DNA from: a virus
Strand: one strand, 5' to 3'
Virus record (IMG/VR): IMGVR_UViG_3300033153_002492
Span: 1 to 25,960 of that record
Length of the DNA: 25,960 nucleotides
The notes under the pieces are model-generated. The model was given only the letters and a program-made list of their open reading frames with translations, did no database searches and was not told the DNA's origin. The position numbers and the translations under genes are program-made. Below are positions 4,087 through 11,972 of this stretch, piece by piece; position 1 is the first letter of the stretch; the number at the start of each line of letters is the position of its first letter.

Positions 4087-6237
4087 ATGACTAGGTATGC
4101 AGAAGATGCACAAGGTAATAGAGTAGCTTATCGTCAGGCTATAGATAATCATGGTAATAAGAGTTGGCATCCAGTTGAAGAACAGACTGGTCTTCAGACT
4201 GTTAGAGGAGCTAATCCTGATAAACGTCCAGATTATCGTGAGCAGCATCGTCAAACAGTCGATGAAATGAATAAGTATGAGAAGGAGGTATCTTCTCGTG
4301 GTCCTGAAGCATATGCTCGTATGAAAGAAGCTAGAGATATGCCGTTTCTAAATAAGTCTGCCATTGTTGCAGGTCGTGAATCCGACAAGTTAATGGCAGG
4401 TGCTGGGGATGTTGGAGATTTCTTGCAAGATGTTGTATTACCTAAAGGACGTACAGGTATAAGAGCTTTTGACATATTTGATAAACATAGGAAAGCTTTA
4501 GCTGACACACCTATAGAGAGAACTATTGCTCGTGCTGAGGACCAAGGAAGTAAAGACGAGGTTTATAGAGAATTCGATGAAAATAAAGGTGGTGCAGCTA
4601 TTGCAGCTATGGCCCCTTATCTTGTATCTGGAGCCACTGCCGGTCCACTTGCTACGAAGACCGCACAGAGTGCAGTGACAAATCTTGCTAAAGGTGCACA
4701 AGCCGGTATAAGGTCAGGTAAAGGTTTGTTCTCTAGAGGAGTTGACAAACTAGCATCTGGCACAGCTTTTCCATTTTTAGGTAAAAAGATGAAAAAAGAG
4801 TGGACAGATCCAATGCTTTTAAAGTCTATTGCTAAAGGTAATAGACCTCCAAAAGGAGAGACTTGGAGAAAAGGTTTCTTAGGAGATGTATTAGGAGGTG
4901 GAGGTTTGGGTTTAGTTGAAGGAGGTATACATTACGATAATAACCCTATTGAAGGCTCAATAGCAGGAATGGGTGGCTCTGTAACAGGTAGATTTTTACG
5001 TCCATTTTTAAGTAAACGGCCTGTAAGTTATAGTTCAGCAGATCAAAAAATAATCCAAGAAGCCGAAGGCCTAGGTATGGATTTCTTTCCAGGTGGAAAG
5101 TATGGACATCGAGGTGATCAAGCTTTTGAAGCAGGTTTACGTAGTAGTAAGACTTGGGGTGAGCCCCTTGCTAGATATGATAGAGCTAACGCCGTTGCTA
5201 TGAATCGTCAAGCTTATAAAGCCATGGGTGTTCCTAAAGATAAAATTGACCAAATGACTCCTGAGGCATTACACTCTCATGTGACTGGTTTAAAGAAAGA
5301 GTATGAAACCCTTGTAGATGGTAGTACAGGTCGATTCTCTTCTGACAGTATTAATAAGATTAGAAAAGGTGGTAAAAGTTTTATAAACGACTTCAGTGAA
5401 GCAGGTATGAAGGCTAAAGGCGTAGTCGATTCTAGGCTTAATGACATCATGGGTAGAGTGCATAATACTAGAGATATGCTTACAGGTAAATATAGACCTG
5501 CCACATTCAGTGGAAAAGATTATCAGTCAATGTCTCAATCTATTAAGGATGAGTTAGATGGTCTTTATAAGAATAACGATATGGTCTCTTATAATGCTCT
5601 TAAGAAAGTACAAAAAGAGTTAGACAATGCTATGGATAACGGCATATCTTATGGAGGCAAAACCTCTTCAGCAGATTGGAAAGATTTAAATGAACGATAT
5701 GCTATGTCAAGGCTACTGATTGATAAAGGTATGGATATAACGGGTAAGTTTGATGCAGAGCAATTTGGTAAATACCTAATGTCTAAAGATGCTTATCGTA
5801 CTTTGACAGGTCAAGGGGGTCGTATCAAACCTCTTCAGAAGATGGCAAGAGCAAATTATTTATCTAAAGGTGAAGCTGGGTCTGATATGACAGGAACAGG
5901 TTTTGGAGACCATAGAGGTAAGATGTCTCATATGCAAGGATTCCTAACTGAAGGATGGGGTCGTAATATGCCTATGATTGATGCAGCTTATCTTAGTATG
6001 TATAAAAAAGGTTGGCCTGCTAGACATGGTCTATTAGGTATGGGCCGTAGTGGTGGAGTGTATGATCCTTTAACCATTATGAGAGCTCAAGCTCAAGGTA
6101 ATCAGCAGCATCCTATAGCGGTACAGAAAGTTAGAGAAACTAAAGACGCTACCGAGAAGTCTTTAACTAATATGGCTGATTGGACCGATGAAAAGTTATC
6201 TGAATTAGAGAAGTTCAAGAGAAGTTTGTTTGAATAG
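4087..6237 (+). CDS. Large internal virion/DNA-ejection protein (putative)
   Basis: A 716-residue protein, the last gene of the plus-strand structural block. After a charged N-terminus there is a hydrophobic Ala/Gly-rich stretch at roughly residues 168-200 (AAIAAMAPYLVSGATAGPLA) and another Gly-rich weakly hydrophobic stretch near 265-280, which could contact or cross a membrane during DNA injection. The C-terminal 400 residues are largely helical and charged, with repeated Lys-rich segments. No lysozyme or transglycosylase motif is visible. It is followed by the convergent junction with the replication arm. Role as a DNA-ejection protein is inferred from size, composition and place. Confidence 0.5.
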   Translation: MTRYAEDAQGNRVAYRQAIDNHGNKSWHPVEEQTGLQTVRGANPDKRPDYREQHRQTVDEMNKYEKEVSSRGPEAYARMKEARDMPFLNKSAIVAGRESDKLMAGAGDVGDFLQDVVLPKGRTGIRAFDIFDKHRKALADTPIERTIARAEDQGSKDEVYREFDENKGGAAIAAMAPYLVSGATAGPLATKTAQSAVTNLAKGAQAGIRSGKGLFSRGVDKLASGTAFPFLGKKMKKEWTDPMLLKSIAKGNRPPKGETWRKGFLGDVLGGGGLGLVEGGIHYDNNPIEGSIAGMGGSVTGRFLRPFLSKRPVSYSSADQKIIQEAEGLGMDFFPGGKYGHRGDQAFEAGLRSSKTWGEPLARYDRANAVAMNRQAYKAMGVPKDKIDQMTPEALHSHVTGLKKEYETLVDGSTGRFSSDSINKIRKGGKSFINDFSEAGMKAKGVVDSRLNDIMGRVHNTRDMLTGKYRPATFSGKDYQSMSQSIKDELDGLYKNNDMVSYNALKKVQKELDNAMDNGISYGGKTSSADWKDLNERYAMSRLLIDKGMDITGKFDAEQFGKYLMSKDAYRTLTGQGGRIKPLQKMARANYLSKGEAGSDMTGTGFGDHRGKMSHMQGFLTEGWGRNMPMIDAAYLSMYKKGWPARHGLLGMGRSGGVYDPLTIMRAQAQGNQQHPIAVQKVRETKDATEKSLTNMADWTDEKLSELEKFKRSLFE

Positions 6238-6264
6238 TTTTTCAGGCCTTAGTACTACTATTAG

Positions 6265-6325
6265 TATATAAACCGGTTGTAATAGAAACTATCTATTAAG
6301 TCTCTAAATATATCCGGTTTATATA
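6265..6325. terminator. Inverted repeat at convergent junction (candidate bidirectional terminator)
   Basis: A perfect 12-bp inverted repeat, TATATAAACCGG at 6265-6276 and CCGGTTTATATA at 6314-6325, encloses a smaller perfect 6-bp hairpin (AATAGA at 6281-6286, TCTATT at 6292-6297). It lies between the stop of the last virion gene and the stop of the convergent ligase gene. The flanks are T-rich or A-rich rather than a clean U-tract, so it is a plausible but not classic bidirectional terminator. Confidence 0.5.
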
Positions 6326-6340
6326 TTTTAGTTAACTACA

Positions 6341-7417
6341 TTATGAAGTTAGCCATCTGTCACAAGTAAGATGAAAAGGTATTCCGTATTCAGTAAGGTA
6401 AGCGAATGAGCAAGTCACCATCCCGCCAATGTATTGATCAGGAAAGTCCGCAACATGTTGTTTATCCAGCTTCGTGCCAGGCGCTACACCATCTACAGTC
6501 TTGCCATTTGGAAGTCTCATCGTTAATACCGCTGAGCCGTCTTTACCAGTATGAATATCGATTACTTCGTATTCAGCATCATATCGATACTTAATCTTTA
6601 ATAACCCTTTAGAACGTTTACCAGCTTGATAACCTTGACCATCGAGTCTCATCATAAGACCCTCATATCCTTGTTGTCTTACGGTATTAAATAACTTTGA
6701 TGTCTCATGTTTATTCTTTTGATACCAATATGGCTCTATTATAATATTCGGCTTACTATCTGATTGGGCTTGAGTATATCTTGTAATATCTACAAATCTT
6801 TCCACAAATGGTCTATCTTCAACTATATCATACACATGGTAATTCAAATCTCTAGTTGCATCTTGCTTACGCTTGATTCTAGAGTTAATATCTTTAAGCT
6901 CCATGCCATGGATATATACTTCACCATCTACAGTTTGGCCTTCTTTTAACCAATCCATCTGCTCCATAATATGGTCAAGAGTATCGATAGGTTTACCATT
7001 ACGTGTATAAGCTAGAAGGCCTCCGTTCTGTCTAGTGACTAGCATACGGTTACCATCAAGTTTACGTTGAAGAACAGCGCCTTTAGTATCAACACTATTT
7101 TGCTTATTAAATTGCTGAGCCAACATGGGCCTGAATAAATTAAGATCATTTTGGTTTTCATATTTATGAGCTTCTTCAATATTCTCTCTATAACCTTTAG
7201 CTCTTTGTTTAGATATACGAGACTTGATACGTAATACCATCTGTTCTCGTATGGTACGTCCACTTTTATTTAATTCAACTTGTTCAATTCGCTCTTGCAT
7301 CTTACCATTTAACTGCCCATAATGTATAATTACACGGGCAGAGTCAATCATAGCGCTTATACTCCATACTTGTATAGCTCCTGTTGCGGTTTTCTTATAC
7401 AATGTTATACTCTTCAT
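6341..7417 (-). CDS. ATP-dependent DNA ligase with N-terminal WGR-like domain
   Basis: A 358-residue enzyme, close to the length of T7 ligase. The nucleotidyltransferase motifs are all visible: motif I KLDGNR at 119-124 with K119 as the adenylated lysine, DGEVY at 164-168, YHVYDI around 193-198, YEGLM at 251-255, and motif V LKIKY at 273-277; an OB-fold domain follows. Residues 4-45 (LYKK...VWSI...VIIHYGQLNGK) look like a WGR-type DNA-binding domain, which some phage ligases carry. It would seal nicks during replication and repair. The start has a GGGAG ribosome binding site. It is the last gene of the minus-strand cluster and has its own candidate promoter just upstream. Confidence 0.93.
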   Translation of the reverse strand: MKSITLYKKTATGAIQVWSISAMIDSARVIIHYGQLNGKMQERIEQVELNKSGRTIREQMVLRIKSRISKQRAKGYRENIEEAHKYENQNDLNLFRPMLAQQFNKQNSVDTKGAVLQRKLDGNRMLVTRQNGGLLAYTRNGKPIDTLDHIMEQMDWLKEGQTVDGEVYIHGMELKDINSRIKRKQDATRDLNYHVYDIVEDRPFVERFVDITRYTQAQSDSKPNIIIEPYWYQKNKHETSKLFNTVRQQGYEGLMMRLDGQGYQAGKRSKGLLKIKYRYDAEYEVIDIHTGKDGSAVLTMRLPNGKTVDGVAPGTKLDKQHVADFPDQYIGGMVTCSFAYLTEYGIPFHLTCDRWLTS

Positions 7418-7457
7418 TTTGTATACTCCCAGAGTTTTTAATTTAAAAGTTTGTTAT

Positions 7458-7466
7458 ATTATACCA
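7458..7466 (-). promoter_or_regulatory. Extended -10 promoter candidate for the ligase gene
   Basis: On the minus strand the sequence reads TGGTATAAT, an extended -10 (TGn directly before TATAAT). No recognisable -35 lies 17 bp upstream. The leader contains AACTCTGGGAG as ribosome binding site. A complementary CCAGAGT lies upstream (minus strand of 7477-7483, inside the end of the deaminase gene), so a read-through transcript could pair the two. Confidence 0.45.
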
Positions 7467-7472
7467 GTAGAC

Positions 7473-7901
7473 TTACACTCTGGATAATATCCATTTACGA
7501 CCATTGGACTCCCAAAGCTCTTTTCCACTGACAGAGTAATCTTCGTTAAAAATAATACGTTCTATACTAGTTAGTAATAAAGCTTTTACACAAGAGATAC
7601 AAGGGGCCGTAGTGCAATATATTGTGTGAGCCTCAAATGGTTTCTCTAATGTTACTAGTGCAGAGATCTCTGCATGACTAGCTTGACACTTGTCTAGACA
7701 CGTACCACTCGCTGCCAATGCTCCTTTACAAGGTTTATCTAGACAAGACATTTGACCAGGTCCTAAACCATTATAGCCAGTAGAAAGAATACGTCCTCTC
7801 TCACTGACTATAACTGCACCTACCTTACGTCTAGTACACTCACCCCTTTTAGAGATAGCTCTAGCTATTTCCATGAAGTTTTCATCTTTTGAAGGTCTCA
7901 T
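7473..7901 (-). CDS. dCMP deaminase (zinc-dependent)
   Basis: A 142-residue enzyme converting dCMP to dUMP. The zinc site is clear: HAE in the segment CQASHAEISAL and PC-x2-C in TTAPCISCVKALL; the N-terminal KRGECTRRKVGAVIV and TGYNG segments are typical of the family, as is a Cys-rich insertion between them. The start at 7901 is chosen because its ATG overlaps the TGA of the upstream TS-fold gene (ATGA) and has GGAG eight bases before it; an upstream in-frame ATG at 7922 lacks such a site. It sits in the nucleotide-modification cluster, where it would shape the dCMP/dUMP balance; no canonical thymidylate synthase is visible in the window to use its product. Confidence 0.92.
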   Translation of the reverse strand: MRPSKDENFMEIARAISKRGECTRRKVGAVIVSERGRILSTGYNGLGPGQMSCLDKPCKGALAASGTCLDKCQASHAEISALVTLEKPFEAHTIYCTTAPCISCVKALLLTSIERIIFNEDYSVSGKELWESNGRKWILSRV

Positions 7902-8668
7902 AAAGGTGACTCCTGTAACCATTGACCAAAGTCGGATTTAAAGTTATCACTTATTAAGTCTATCACACTAGTGATTTCAGGATAATCAACGGGTGTGAAA
8001 GAGCTATAACCATCTAGTAACACCTTTTCAATCATGCTCCAATGCGGTTCATAAATATGGAGTGAATTAGCTTCAAATACCATTCGACCTCTAGGTAATT
8101 TCAAAGTAAGTGCAACCATCTCCCATAACCACCAATATGTAGGTAAGTCAGTACCTAAACCAAATACAGCATCAGAACTTCTGAATGATACCTGAATATC
8201 TAATGCACCATTAATGACTCTAAACTGTGGGCCTTTGCTACAGACAACATCCTTATTCCCGACCCATAGATGGTCTGTATTATTCATAGGTAGATAGGTT
8301 TGTCTTGAGTCAAGGTCATTTAACAACGTACTCACTACCCAATCAAATCCAGACATACCATTAATGTACGTTGGGTTAAACCAGTAATACCCATAATTAG
8401 AGAATATCTCACCTGTATCTTGCTGGATTTTACTCCACATCTTAGCATACTTAGCTATTCTGTCATCATATGGATCTGCATTTAGATACCATTGGAACTC
8501 TCTTTTAGCGTAACTAAGAGGATAGTTACGTGCTGAGTACGTAGACCAAGGATTATCGATCGTTCCTTGGAAACAGTCTAACTCTTTTATCTTCTGACCT
8601 CGAGGGGAGCTCTCTCTACCATGCTCCATTATTTCCTTCCATATATCATATACGACATAGTTTTTCAT
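7898..8668 (-). CDS. Thymidylate-synthase-fold enzyme, predicted dCMP hydroxymethylase
   Basis: A 256-residue TS-family protein. Landmarks fall at the spacing of E. coli thymidylate synthase, shifted by three: nucleophile C143 (C146), R163 (R166), D166 (D169), H204 and Y206 (H207, Y209), plus the E57/W60 helix. The residue at the position of the uracil-reading Asn177 is Asp, D174 (segment GLGTDLPTYW). In T4 dCMP hydroxymethylase the same Asn-to-Asp change gives dCMP specificity. I therefore predict conversion of dCMP to 5-hydroxymethyl-dCMP with methylene-tetrahydrofolate. The neighbours (dNMP kinase, MazG, carbamoyltransferase) fit a cytosine modification pathway. The usual PPC before the nucleophile is replaced by VVC. 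The alternative is a dCMP methylase or divergent dUMP enzyme. The start has a GGAG site. Confidence 0.8.
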   Translation of the reverse strand: MKNYVVYDIWKEIMEHGRESSPRGQKIKELDCFQGTIDNPWSTYSARNYPLSYAKREFQWYLNADPYDDRIAKYAKMWSKIQQDTGEIFSNYGYYWFNPTYINGMSGFDWVVSTLLNDLDSRQTYLPMNNTDHLWVGNKDVVCSKGPQFRVINGALDIQVSFRSSDAVFGLGTDLPTYWWLWEMVALTLKLPRGRMVFEANSLHIYEPHWSMIEKVLLDGYSSFTPVDYPEITSVIDLISDNFKSDFGQWLQESPL

Positions 8669-9137
8669 TTATCTTCTCCACTAATTTTTCATAAGAATCT
8701 TTACGCCAATCGAAATTTATATGGTCTACACCTTGCATATACTCTGAATATAAATCTCGGATTAATTGCTTCTCCTCTGTTATCTTTTTAAGATGGCCAG
8801 AAGGATAGTAAGACTTAGGCTCATGCACACCATCTCCACAAGCATATATAATAACCGCGTATTCAAGCATCTCTTCTAATCGTCTATTAAATAAGATTAA
8901 CTCTAATTCAGGAATACGATCATGGTCATATATAGGTCTAGAAATAGGAGTGACTCTATCCACAATATAACCATTCCGCAATCTCTCAAGTTGCTGACTA
9001 CATGCATCTAGAGCTTGCTGAGTATCACCTGGATTAGGACCACTATGGCTATAAGGTAGAGTAAAATCTACTCTAAGCTTTTCAGCTAAAGTAGACTTAC
9101 CACTTGCATTAGGTCCTTCAAGGATTATCGATTTCAT
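8646..9137 (-). CDS. Deoxynucleoside monophosphate kinase-like P-loop protein
   Basis: A 163-residue protein with a Walker A motif GPNASGKST at residues 8-16 and a DR motif at 60-61 (YIVDRVTPIS), the arrangement of thymidylate-kinase-like and phage dNMP kinases. It overlaps the TS-fold gene by 23 bases and the MazG gene by 20, so all three are co-translated. In this context the likely substrate is the modified monophosphate made by the TS-fold enzyme, as T4 gp1 phosphorylates hydroxymethyl-dCMP; that is inference. It could instead be a general dTMP/dCMP kinase or a polynucleotide kinase-like protein. Confidence 0.75.
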   Translation of the reverse strand: MKSIILEGPNASGKSTLAEKLRVDFTLPYSHSGPNPGDTQQALDACSQQLERLRNGYIVDRVTPISRPIYDHDRIPELELILFNRRLEEMLEYAVIIYACGDGVHEPKSYYPSGHLKKITEEKQLIRDLYSEYMQGVDHINFDWRKDSYEKLVEKINEKLCRI

Positions 9138-9525
9138 GTAATAATATCCCCGCTATTCTATCTTCAGGTGAAATCCATCCTTCAGGCTTAATTGCATCAG
9201 CGGCATTATAACCTTCACGACCAGCTTTTATACCTTTCTTCTTTCCCATATTTGCATCCATCACTGCAGTAAAACACTCATGGAGCAAGTCAGCTGTCAT
9301 ACCCATTTTATAAGCTACACCATAAGTGAATACAAGGTTATCTATTAATGCATCTAATGCACCAATAAAATCATTATGTTCACAAGCTTCAAGGAACTCT
9401 CCAACTTCTTCTTGCATTTGGTGGTGAGACAATCGAAATTCCTCTTCATCTTGTATGTGAACAGGTCTCTCATTAATACCTAAGATTTCCTTATTAAACT
9501 TTGCTACTTGGTTAAACTTATTCAT
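9118..9525 (-). CDS. MazG-type nucleotide pyrophosphohydrolase
   Basis: A 135-residue all-helical protein with the metal-binding pattern of the MazG/all-alpha NTP pyrophosphatase family: E39, E40 and E43 in QMQEEVGEF and D58/D62 in LDALIDN. Such enzymes cleave (d)NTPs to monophosphate and pyrophosphate. Here it lies between the carbamoyltransferase (4-base ATGA overlap) and the dNMP kinase. A phage that replaces cytosine needs a dCTPase to drain dCTP and supply dCMP, which is a reasonable inferred role. Other phage MazG proteins have been linked to (p)ppGpp or dUTP, so substrate is open. Confidence 0.78.
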   Translation of the reverse strand: MNKFNQVAKFNKEILGINERPVHIQDEEEFRLSHHQMQEEVGEFLEACEHNDFIGALDALIDNLVFTYGVAYKMGMTADLLHECFTAVMDANMGKKKGIKAGREGYNAADAIKPEGWISPEDRIAGILLHEIDNP

Positions 9526-11102
9526 TTCTTCACCTCTATTAATGTTACGAATCGATTAGTTGTGTCATGCTTTTGTTGATACTCATGAGCTTTCTTTATA
9601 TCACTTGCTGTTAAGCAAATAGGTTGTCCATGTATATTGAAGCTCGTATTTATCAATGGACCAAATTTATTAACTGATGGATATACAGGATGGTCTTCAT
9701 TAAGTACTTGAGGTCTTCCAGTAAAATAGTCCTCAAAAGGTAAATAATGTTTTACACCATCGATTTGTCTTCTAGTTTCCTTATAAGGTAATGACATAAT
9801 CATATGTTTTACAGATTTTATCACTTTATATGTGTGAGTAAATGTAAATTCATAGGTTCTTTCAGTCATAACCGGAGCCATAGGCATGTCTGTATCTCTA
9901 CCATTAGCTTTGTTTATAGCCTTACAGTTCCCCAAATATGGTAAAGCTATTGTGCTTGTATTACAATACGCTCGCTCACCAAACTCCATCTTATCTCTTA
10001 TCACATTTACAATAAAGTCATTACCTAAATAAAATTGTAAGCTTTCATTTAAATCTTGCACATAATGGAGCTTGTTACTTAATATACCTAATAGGTTTCT
10101 TTTACCCCAACATAGGTTATCAGGAATGATAAAGTCTTTATTATGATACTTATATACTCCTAAACCTGCTCCGCTATCACCAGATAAGGGCATCACGCCT
10201 ACTTTATTCTGAATAGCTTTAGCTATAGATCCATTTAGTTGGACATTCATAAATACACCACCAACTAGTAGTACATTTTTTATATCATATTTAAAGATGA
10301 AATGTTTTATACATTTCTCAACTATTCTTTGAAGGACAAAAGCTATTTGAGCCTTTTCTCTAGGTTCAAAATGTTTAGATAACATATCTATTACGGATTT
10401 GTGAACATAAGATAGTGCACTTAATGAGAATATTGGGTCACTCTCTTCATTGATAGGTATAGTGAGTCTTGATATATATTCACTAGATAAACTATCTGCA
10501 ATAGTTATTAAGCTATCAATCTCTGAAGGGTAAACACGTGAGGCAGCCGCATTAAGTTTCCACTCATCTTGATTCATCTTTAAGCCTACATAGTCTGTAG
10601 CATATTGATAAAGCAACCCAAGTGAGGCCTCATAATTATGGACAGAATGCACCGGCTCAGGTACACCATTTATTATCTTATAAATCGTAAATACCTCACC
10701 ATAATTACCAAATCCATCAGCAGTAATGATATGACAATCATCTGGTACTTCATCATTGAAATAAGCTAGTGCAGAGTAAGCGTGGGCTTTATGATGTGTG
10801 AAGTCTATATTTAAAGACTTTAAAGTGTGATTAGGGAATCGTCTATTAATATATGTAGGATTCCAATGTCGTTCAGACATCCTATCTATATCAGCTGTAG
10901 GCTCCCAATGGGATACGTATATAGTAACATTATCAGTTATATCATCCCATTTCATTAACTCTTCTATAGCTTCCATAGGGAATTGAGAGTCTGATTTCAA
11001 TTTGGATATTCTTTCATTCATATAACCATTAACTATTTTATTATCTTTAATAAGGATAGCTGAGCTACCATGGCCCAAAGTTAGTACTAAAGAATCTTTC
11101 AT
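9522..11102 (-). CDS. TobZ/NodU-type carbamoyltransferase, predicted DNA-base modifier
   Basis: A 526-residue two-domain carbamoyltransferase. The N-terminal ASKHA/Kae1-like domain has the metal motif HHKAHA at 103-108 and TADGFGNYGE at 127-136; GGVFMN at 281-286 and GDSGAGLG at 308-315 continue it. The C-terminal YrdC-like domain has FGERAYCNTS at 374-383 (a divergent form of the family's GPRALGxRS), MPMAP at 406-410 and LINTSFNIHGQPI at 483-495. Family members transfer the carbamoyl group of carbamoyl phosphate to a hydroxyl through a carbamoyl-adenylate. With a predicted dCMP hydroxymethylase, a kinase and MazG alongside, the likely acceptor is the hydroxymethyl group of cytosine. From memory, a metagenomic association study (MetaGPA) linked such a phage enzyme to 5-carbamoyloxymethylcytosine. 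Whether it acts on nucleotide or DNA cannot be read from the sequence. Confidence 0.88.
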   Translation of the reverse strand: MKDSLVLTLGHGSSAILIKDNKIVNGYMNERISKLKSDSQFPMEAIEELMKWDDITDNVTIYVSHWEPTADIDRMSERHWNPTYINRRFPNHTLKSLNIDFTHHKAHAYSALAYFNDEVPDDCHIITADGFGNYGEVFTIYKIINGVPEPVHSVHNYEASLGLLYQYATDYVGLKMNQDEWKLNAAASRVYPSEIDSLITIADSLSSEYISRLTIPINEESDPIFSLSALSYVHKSVIDMLSKHFEPREKAQIAFVLQRIVEKCIKHFIFKYDIKNVLLVGGVFMNVQLNGSIAKAIQNKVGVMPLSGDSGAGLGVYKYHNKDFIIPDNLCWGKRNLLGILSNKLHYVQDLNESLQFYLGNDFIVNVIRDKMEFGERAYCNTSTIALPYLGNCKAINKANGRDTDMPMAPVMTERTYEFTFTHTYKVIKSVKHMIMSLPYKETRRQIDGVKHYLPFEDYFTGRPQVLNEDHPVYPSVNKFGPLINTSFNIHGQPICLTASDIKKAHEYQQKHDTTNRFVTLIEVKK

Positions 11103-11141: not shown

Positions 11142-11972
11142 TTACCAGTCGTTTAATAAAGAATCAACATCTTTATCGTCTGATGCTGACTCTTTCTCAA
11201 AAGGGATGTCATCATCCTCTTCATCTACCTTTGGTAAAGCTCTTTTAGATTCACCTTTAGACTTGTTCTCTAAAGCTAGTCCACCTGAATCCCACTCTTT
11301 AGCTTGGCTTCTCTTATGAGCAGTAGGACCATGCTTCTCTCCAAGCATTCCCATTAGGTCAAACTCAAGCTTTGGAACACTTGCGTCTTCATCAAAATAG
11401 ATTTTTGTCACTGCAAATTGAGGTCCTGGAATCCCTTTAGATGCAAGTAACTTACCATAATTTGTAAATGCTTTAAGGCTATTAACTGTAATAGTCATTA
11501 ACCATAATTTGCAGTTATCTGCATCAGCTGAGAAGTCTTTTGCTTTAGCTACATAAATATGCTTACTATCTTTACAAGCTTTAGCTTTACCTCCAGACAT
11601 GCTTTTTGCAGAGCCCCAAATTTGATTAGGGCACTTAATACAGTTCTCATGCTGAGGCTCATTTATCCAATGGTCAGGGTTAACCCCATCCATAGATGAG
11701 CAATCAGGTGGATCGTTGCTATCAGGTGAATATCCATCGATATAAAAAGTGTGTGCTAAACCTCTTTCAGGACTCAAACCAATAATTATCACATTGATTT
11801 CTTGACCCTCTTTGGTCTCATCTTCACCCTCTTTAAAGCGAAAGACTTTACCTTTAGTTGAGATGCGAGGCACTCCGCCCGTTGCCACTTCCATATCTTG
11901 GGTAGTATTAACAACGGTCCCTTCAGCCATCATATCTTTAAGATAATCTGGTATTACTATGTCTTTACTCAT
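11142..11972 (-). CDS. Putative single-stranded DNA-binding protein with Cys cluster and acidic tail
   Basis: A 276-residue protein with a beta-rich N-terminal half, a Cys/His cluster (PPDCSS..., ENCIKCPN, KACKDSKH) that could bind zinc, and a highly acidic C-terminus ending in DVDSLLNDW. An acidic tail ending in an aromatic residue is the hallmark of phage and bacterial ssDNA-binding proteins (T7 gp2.5, T4 gp32, SSB), where it contacts other replication proteins. The place, in a replication/modification operon, agrees. I recall similar proteins in podoviruses with this PolA/primase/VRR-NUC set. A clear OB-fold signature cannot be confirmed by eye. Good AGGAA ribosome binding site before the ATG. 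Confidence 0.6.
   Translation of the reverse strand: MSKDIVIPDYLKDMMAEGTVVNTTQDMEVATGGVPRISTKGKVFRFKEGEDETKEGQEINVIIIGLSPERGLAHTFYIDGYSPDSNDPPDCSSMDGVNPDHWINEPQHENCIKCPNQIWGSAKSMSGGKAKACKDSKHIYVAKAKDFSADADNCKLWLMTITVNSLKAFTNYGKLLASKGIPGPQFAVTKIYFDEDASVPKLEFDLMGMLGEKHGPTAHKRSQAKEWDSGGLALENKSKGESKRALPKVDEEDDDIPFEKESASDDKDVDSLLNDW

Follow-up and report, generated by a model that had tools for sequence, protein, structure and literature searches.

A five-gene phage operon predicted to replace cytosine with 5-carbamoyloxymethylcytosine

The operon and its surroundings

The window, by which we mean the whole stretch of DNA analysed here, is an IMG/VR virus record of 25,960 bases with a G+C content of 38%; it is an incomplete 26-kb fragment that also encodes a terminase and virion genes. 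Its minus strand carries a replication module in which Pfam and PHROGs recognise a Prim-Pol primase, a family A polymerase, an exonuclease, an endonuclease, a SNF2-type helicase and a ligase. Inside this module, with the helicase on one side and the ligase on the other, sits a five-gene operon on the same strand, encoding a carbamoyltransferase, a MazG-like enzyme, a kinase, a thymidylate synthase (TS)-fold enzyme and a dCMP deaminase. A sequence-only reading had proposed five overlapping genes at positions 7473-11102, and all five open reading frames are indeed present and co-oriented, with overlaps between neighbours of 4, 20, 23 and 25 bases. Pfam and PHROGs agree with that reading in naming the carbamoyltransferase, the MazG-like protein, the TS fold and the dCMP deaminase. 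A DNA search of the phage collection with the operon region found no similar record.

The carbamoyltransferase

The 526-aa product of the first gene (9522..11102, minus strand) is a 5hmC-type carbamoyltransferase with the two-domain NodU/TobZ architecture (PF02543 and PF16861, both 1.4e-16; phrog_1601, 1e-55). The sequence-only reading mentioned that phage carbamoylation of hydroxymethylcytosine had been reported from metagenomic association work, which was published in 2021. Yang et al. (MetaGPA, eLife 2021;10:e70021, PMC8670742) demonstrated in vitro that a metagenomic carbamoyltransferase converts 5hmC to a modification that they named 5-carbamoyloxymethylcytosine. With carbamoyl phosphate and ATP, their enzyme acts on single-stranded DNA, less on double-stranded DNA and RNA, and on triphosphates including 5hmdCTP, while 5-methyl-dCTP is not a substrate (PMC8670742). 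The same authors found that carbamoyltransferase, TS, PF01503 and dCMP-deaminase domains co-occur, and predicted the existence of some phage with 5-carbamoyloxymethylcytosine in its DNA (PMC8670742).

The window protein aligns end to end with this proven 554-residue enzyme (33% identity, 257 bits), and the solved O-carbamoyltransferases TobZ, GdmN and NovN, which belong to the same two-domain fold family, are more distant from it. We built a tree of 62 carbamoyltransferases by a quick method with SH-aLRT support and no bootstrap; its outgroup of 10 rows, some on long branches, consisted of sugar, antibiotic, cyanophage and plasmid carbamoyltransferases. The tree separates the 10 outgroup rows, with an SH-aLRT of 100, from a clade of 52 rows in which the window and the proven enzyme are joined by 50 viral relatives or MAG-borne copies; the window and the proven enzyme also fall together in a subclade of five rows (SH-aLRT 92). 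A scan of genome contigs gave no firm host, since its matches were three members of the clade, all on short MAG contigs, and two of the outgroup.

We inspected the positions corresponding to W408, G421 and R423 of TobZ, which have been linked to cytosine modification (PMC8670742). The TobZ sequence itself is not in the alignment, a search for it with the C-terminal part only having found nothing; its numbering was transferred to GdmN and NovN from the spacing of motifs. The three residues are V/C/T in the window and I/C/T in the proven enzyme, compared with W/G/R in GdmN and NovN and usually elsewhere outside the clade. At the R423 position all 52 clade members have Thr and all 12 sequences outside have Arg; at the G421 position 44 of 52 clade members have Cys, while Gly is found in 12 of 12 outside; and no clade member has Trp at the W408 position. 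In TobZ, GdmN and NovN, whose acceptors are small molecules, Gly and Arg stand at the positions that are mostly Cys and always Thr in the 5hmC clade.

At four positions (K105, N184, A186 and S310) the window protein differs from near-invariant residues of the clade, and its acceptor could thus differ from that of the proven enzyme. Its nearest relative (L053) has only N184 in common with it, carrying L and C at the A186 and S310 positions. These changes in the window lineage fit an alternative in which the DNA base is 5-hydroxymethylcytosine or some other derivative and the carbamoyltransferase acts on a surface sugar, a small molecule or a further modified cytosine; so does the fact that sugars and antibiotics are the usual acceptors in the NodU/TobZ family, whose cyanophage members adjoin sugar genes. 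We consider this improbable, given the grouping with a proven 5hmC enzyme, the retention of the specificity-linked residues and the close coupling of carbamoyltransferase genes across the clade to TS-fold genes of the type described below, and given that PHROGs and annotation of the window genes recognised no sugar genes.

The TS-fold enzyme

The TS-fold protein (7898..8668, minus strand, 256 aa; PF00303 2e-17, phrog_160 1e-31) is a predicted dCMP hydroxymethylase. It has a catalytic cysteine (C143), a serine (S144) replacing the histidine of position 147, and an aspartate (D174) at the position equivalent to E. coli 177. The numbering reference is E. coli ThyA. D174 aligns with D179 of T4 gp42, the sequence of which was taken from the T4 record, and the dCMP-specific Asp claimed from the sequence alone is thereby located. 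The best PDB match is T4 dCMP hydroxymethylase, and the family profile gives 175.7 bits for T4 gp42 compared with 109.6 bits for E. coli ThyA.

Near the clade carbamoyltransferases, 57 of 57 TS-fold matches have Asp177, a count that includes near-duplicate contigs and second copies; the search profile is able to pick up Asn-type ThyA as well. When whole records were searched, two clade phages proved to encode an Asn177/His147 ThyA away from the carbamoyltransferase, which has the Asp177 enzyme beside it; these two phages are a within-genome control for the association.

Asp177 by itself cannot distinguish a dCMP hydroxymethylase from a dCMP methylase, and the Asn-to-Asp change alone yields 5-methyl-dCMP in model thymidylate synthases, according to literature as cited in PMC8670742. 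The enzyme might then make 5-methylcytosine DNA as in the Xp12-type phages, with a carbamoyltransferase unrelated to DNA. This seems very improbable to us, as both the profile scores and the best PDB match favour the T4 hydroxymethylase, and a carbamoyltransferase that depends on a hydroxyl is conserved next to the TS-fold gene, the proven enzyme being inactive on 5-methyl-dCTP (PMC8670742). We infer that the product carries a hydroxymethyl instead of a methyl group.

The kinase, the MazG-like enzyme and the deaminase

The kinase (8646..9137, minus strand, 163 aa) has no match in Pfam or NCBIfam and was detected only via PHROGs (phrog_761 thymidylate kinase, 1.5e-12); it is the one step that would have escaped a scan with Pfam here. 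Its AF2 model (pLDDT 93.1) has as top Foldseek match YorR of the Bacillus prophage SPbeta (3kb2), followed by deoxyadenosine and thymidylate kinases, and YorR also comes first in the profile search. A P-loop Gly-Lys and a DR motif are invariant among the relatives. The NMP/deoxynucleoside kinase fold and these two motifs fit the initial designation as a dNMP kinase. Profile searches detected no homology to T4 gp1. The position of the gene in the cassette suggests 5-hydroxymethyl-dCMP as the substrate of this candidate kinase.

The MazG-like protein (9118..9525, minus strand, 135 aa; PF01503 8e-7, phrog_671 9e-20) is an all-alpha nucleotide pyrophosphohydrolase of the MazG/DR2231 type, with residues of metal-ligand type (E39, E40, E43, D58 and D62) that are invariant in 18 relatives. 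DR2231 is its closest solved relative both by sequence profile and by fold (AF2 model pLDDT 92.5, matched by Foldseek), and profile searches gave no usable similarity to the T4 gp56 dCTPase. The initial proposal that the operon could drain dCTP is not established by these comparisons: since DR2231 was crystallised with dUTP analogues and dUMP, a dCTPase is possible and dUTP is an equal candidate, and the substrate may be dCTP and/or dUTP. Many phages that do not belong to the carbamoyltransferase set also encode relatives of the window protein.

The deaminase (7473..7901, minus strand; PF00383 1e-19, phrog_174 1e-37) has the zinc motifs HAE and PCxxC, and its PDB matches are the dCMP deaminases 2hvv and 1vq2. 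Translation probably begins at 7901, giving 142 aa, and not at 7922, which would give 149 aa. As read from the translations, the ATG at 7901 is the second of the open reading frame, has CAGGAGTCACCTTT ahead of it and forms an ATGA overlap with the stop of the TS gene.

A DR2231-like fold, a deaminase and a dTMP-kinase-like fold would all suit dTTP supply, and one could imagine a cassette for thymine alone (dCMP deaminase, dUTPase-like MazG, TS and dTMP kinase), with the carbamoyltransferase unrelated. However, the TS-fold enzyme lacks the Asn and His of the dUMP type, and clade phages that have an ordinary Asn/His ThyA have it elsewhere. We rejected thymine supply as the sole function on this Asp/His evidence and give it almost no credence.

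The cassette in relatives

Within the flanks fetched for 52 IMG/VR relatives, a TS-fold gene is present in 47, a deaminase gene in 30, a kinase gene in 29 and a MazG gene in 21. The order carbamoyltransferase, MazG, kinase, TS, deaminase, all on one strand, is found in 20 of the 52, one of which (L017) is Xanthomonas phage Xp15 itself. Five relatives have no TS-fold neighbour: in four of them the carbamoyltransferase lies at a contig end, and the remaining one (L051) encodes an Asp177 enzyme at another place on its record. Besides Xp15, the five-gene order is seen in three Acinetobacter phages (MD-2021a, HHU4 and Effie) and on a MAG contig assigned to Acidimicrobiia. As both order and orientation recur in unrelated contigs, the layout is not due to chance. 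Bacteroides phages have a different arrangement, with a carbamoyltransferase and two TS-fold genes. No TS-fold gene was found near the outgroup carbamoyltransferases in flanks of 3-9 kb, and the neighbours of the P-SSM2 carbamoyltransferase are sugar genes.

A proposed route to carbamoylated cytosine

We read the operon as a phage cassette that would swap genomic cytosine for 5-carbamoyloxymethylcytosine, and put the probability of this reading at about 0.82. Its core, which had already been proposed from the sequence alone, is that dCMP would be converted to 5-hydroxymethyl-dCMP and then carbamoylated; this is well supported by sequence comparison, the carbamoyltransferase belonging to the same clade as the proven enzyme and having a TS partner of the dCMP type.

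The TS-fold enzyme would use dCMP and methylene-tetrahydrofolate to make 5-hydroxymethyl-dCMP, which the P-loop kinase, together with a host NDP kinase, would raise to 5-hydroxymethyl-dCTP. The carbamoyltransferase would then use ATP and carbamoyl phosphate, through a carbamoyl-adenylate intermediate, to place a carbamoyl group on the hydroxyl of 5hmdCTP and/or of single-stranded DNA at the fork. Either or both of dCTP and dUTP would be the unwanted triphosphate that the MazG-like enzyme clears; the deaminase would set the balance of dCMP and dUMP for thymine supply.

As the proven enzyme acts on both 5hmdCTP and single-stranded DNA, sequence cannot fix the timing of carbamoylation, which may fall at either stage. 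Cytosine would presumably be replaced in full, and the modification may shield the DNA from bacterial restriction enzymes. A narrower version, in which carbamoylation takes place at the nucleotide level, the polymerase uses 5-carbamoyloxymethyl-dCTP and the kinase picks the modified monophosphate over dCMP, is tentative and in our view rather unlikely; if it holds, cytosine would be hypermodified entirely before replication, whereas in T4 glucosylation comes after DNA synthesis. In the literature we found, there is no virion DNA measurement of 5-carbamoyloxymethylcytosine for any phage with this gene.

Comparison with known systems

Since 2021 the modified base, the enzyme that makes it and the co-occurring domains have been known (PMC8670742), and a search of the open literature found no later work on the modified base and no relevant phage papers besides that one. 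The window shares with the MetaGPA system its clade, the specificity-linked residues, the Asp177 TS-fold partner, and the presence of PF01503 and dCMP-deaminase domains in the same contig. It differs from it in that the carbamoyltransferases are only 33% identical, a few near-invariant residues are changed, and the five genes stand in a fixed order that includes a kinase without a match in Pfam. The expectation that this operon would add the nucleotide-level steps is only partly borne out, because activity on 5hmdCTP, like the domain co-occurrence, was already reported in PMC8670742; the kinase is an addition. To it can be added the fixed gene order, the within-genome contrast with ThyA and the named cultured phages. 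The supply steps that remain are indicated by the conserved kinase and MazG genes, and the window is an unusually complete example of a carbamoylated-cytosine operon.

The pathway to glucosylated 5hmC in T4 is similar in plan, with a dCMP hydroxymethylase, a kinase, a triphosphatase, a deaminase and a transferase acting on the hydroxyl, and gp42 is homologous to the TS-fold enzyme. Unlike in T4, the group transferred would be carbamoyl instead of glucose, and the kinase and pyrophosphatase are not detectably homologous to gp1 and gp56.

Xp15, Effie and HHU4 are cultured phages with this five-gene cassette, so that both the existence of such DNA and any resistance to restriction can be checked in them. 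The window shares with Xp15 (Alachuavirus), MD-2021a, HHU4 and Effie the order polymerase, exonuclease, helicase, carbamoyltransferase, MazG, kinase, TS, deaminase and ligase, although the proteins are only about 28-43% identical.

Among the relatives of the carbamoyltransferase locus, the TS-fold proteins adjoining the carbamoyltransferase in L021, L022, L026, L027, L028, L055 and L057 retain Asp177 (E. coli numbering), the dCMP-type residue, and have lost other TS residues, and the same is true of the first TS copy in L006, L032, L039, L047, L049 and L052. The changes consist of E58 to Q, M, L or I, mostly together with D169 to E or N; given these losses, the altered proteins may differ in chemistry or cofactor use. 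Four Bacteroides-type loci (L006, L032, L039 and L052) have two TS-fold genes close to the carbamoyltransferase, with active-site residues intact in one copy and altered in the other.

Outside the carbamoyltransferase set, the MazG of the window (9118-9525) has close relatives in many phages of Pseudomonas, Stenotrophomonas, Achromobacter and Microbacterium, and thus this gene may serve several base-modification pathways.

Immediately upstream of the carbamoyltransferase, in the window's replication module, is a conserved 276-aa protein (11142-11972) with relatives in related phages, which matches only unknown-function families in PHROGs. It contains a stretch rich in Cys, and its C-terminus is acidic, resembling that of a single-strand DNA-binding protein. 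The gene at 11985-12392 matches phrog_13900, "minor head protein", a name that is probably wrong; here and in related phages alike, the gene sits within the replication module.

In the outgroup cyanophage P-SSM2 (L071), genes for a sugar kinase, a nucleotidyltransferase and a phosphoheptose isomerase adjoin the carbamoyltransferase (5001-8596 of that locus), an arrangement that suggests a role for that enzyme on surface sugars.
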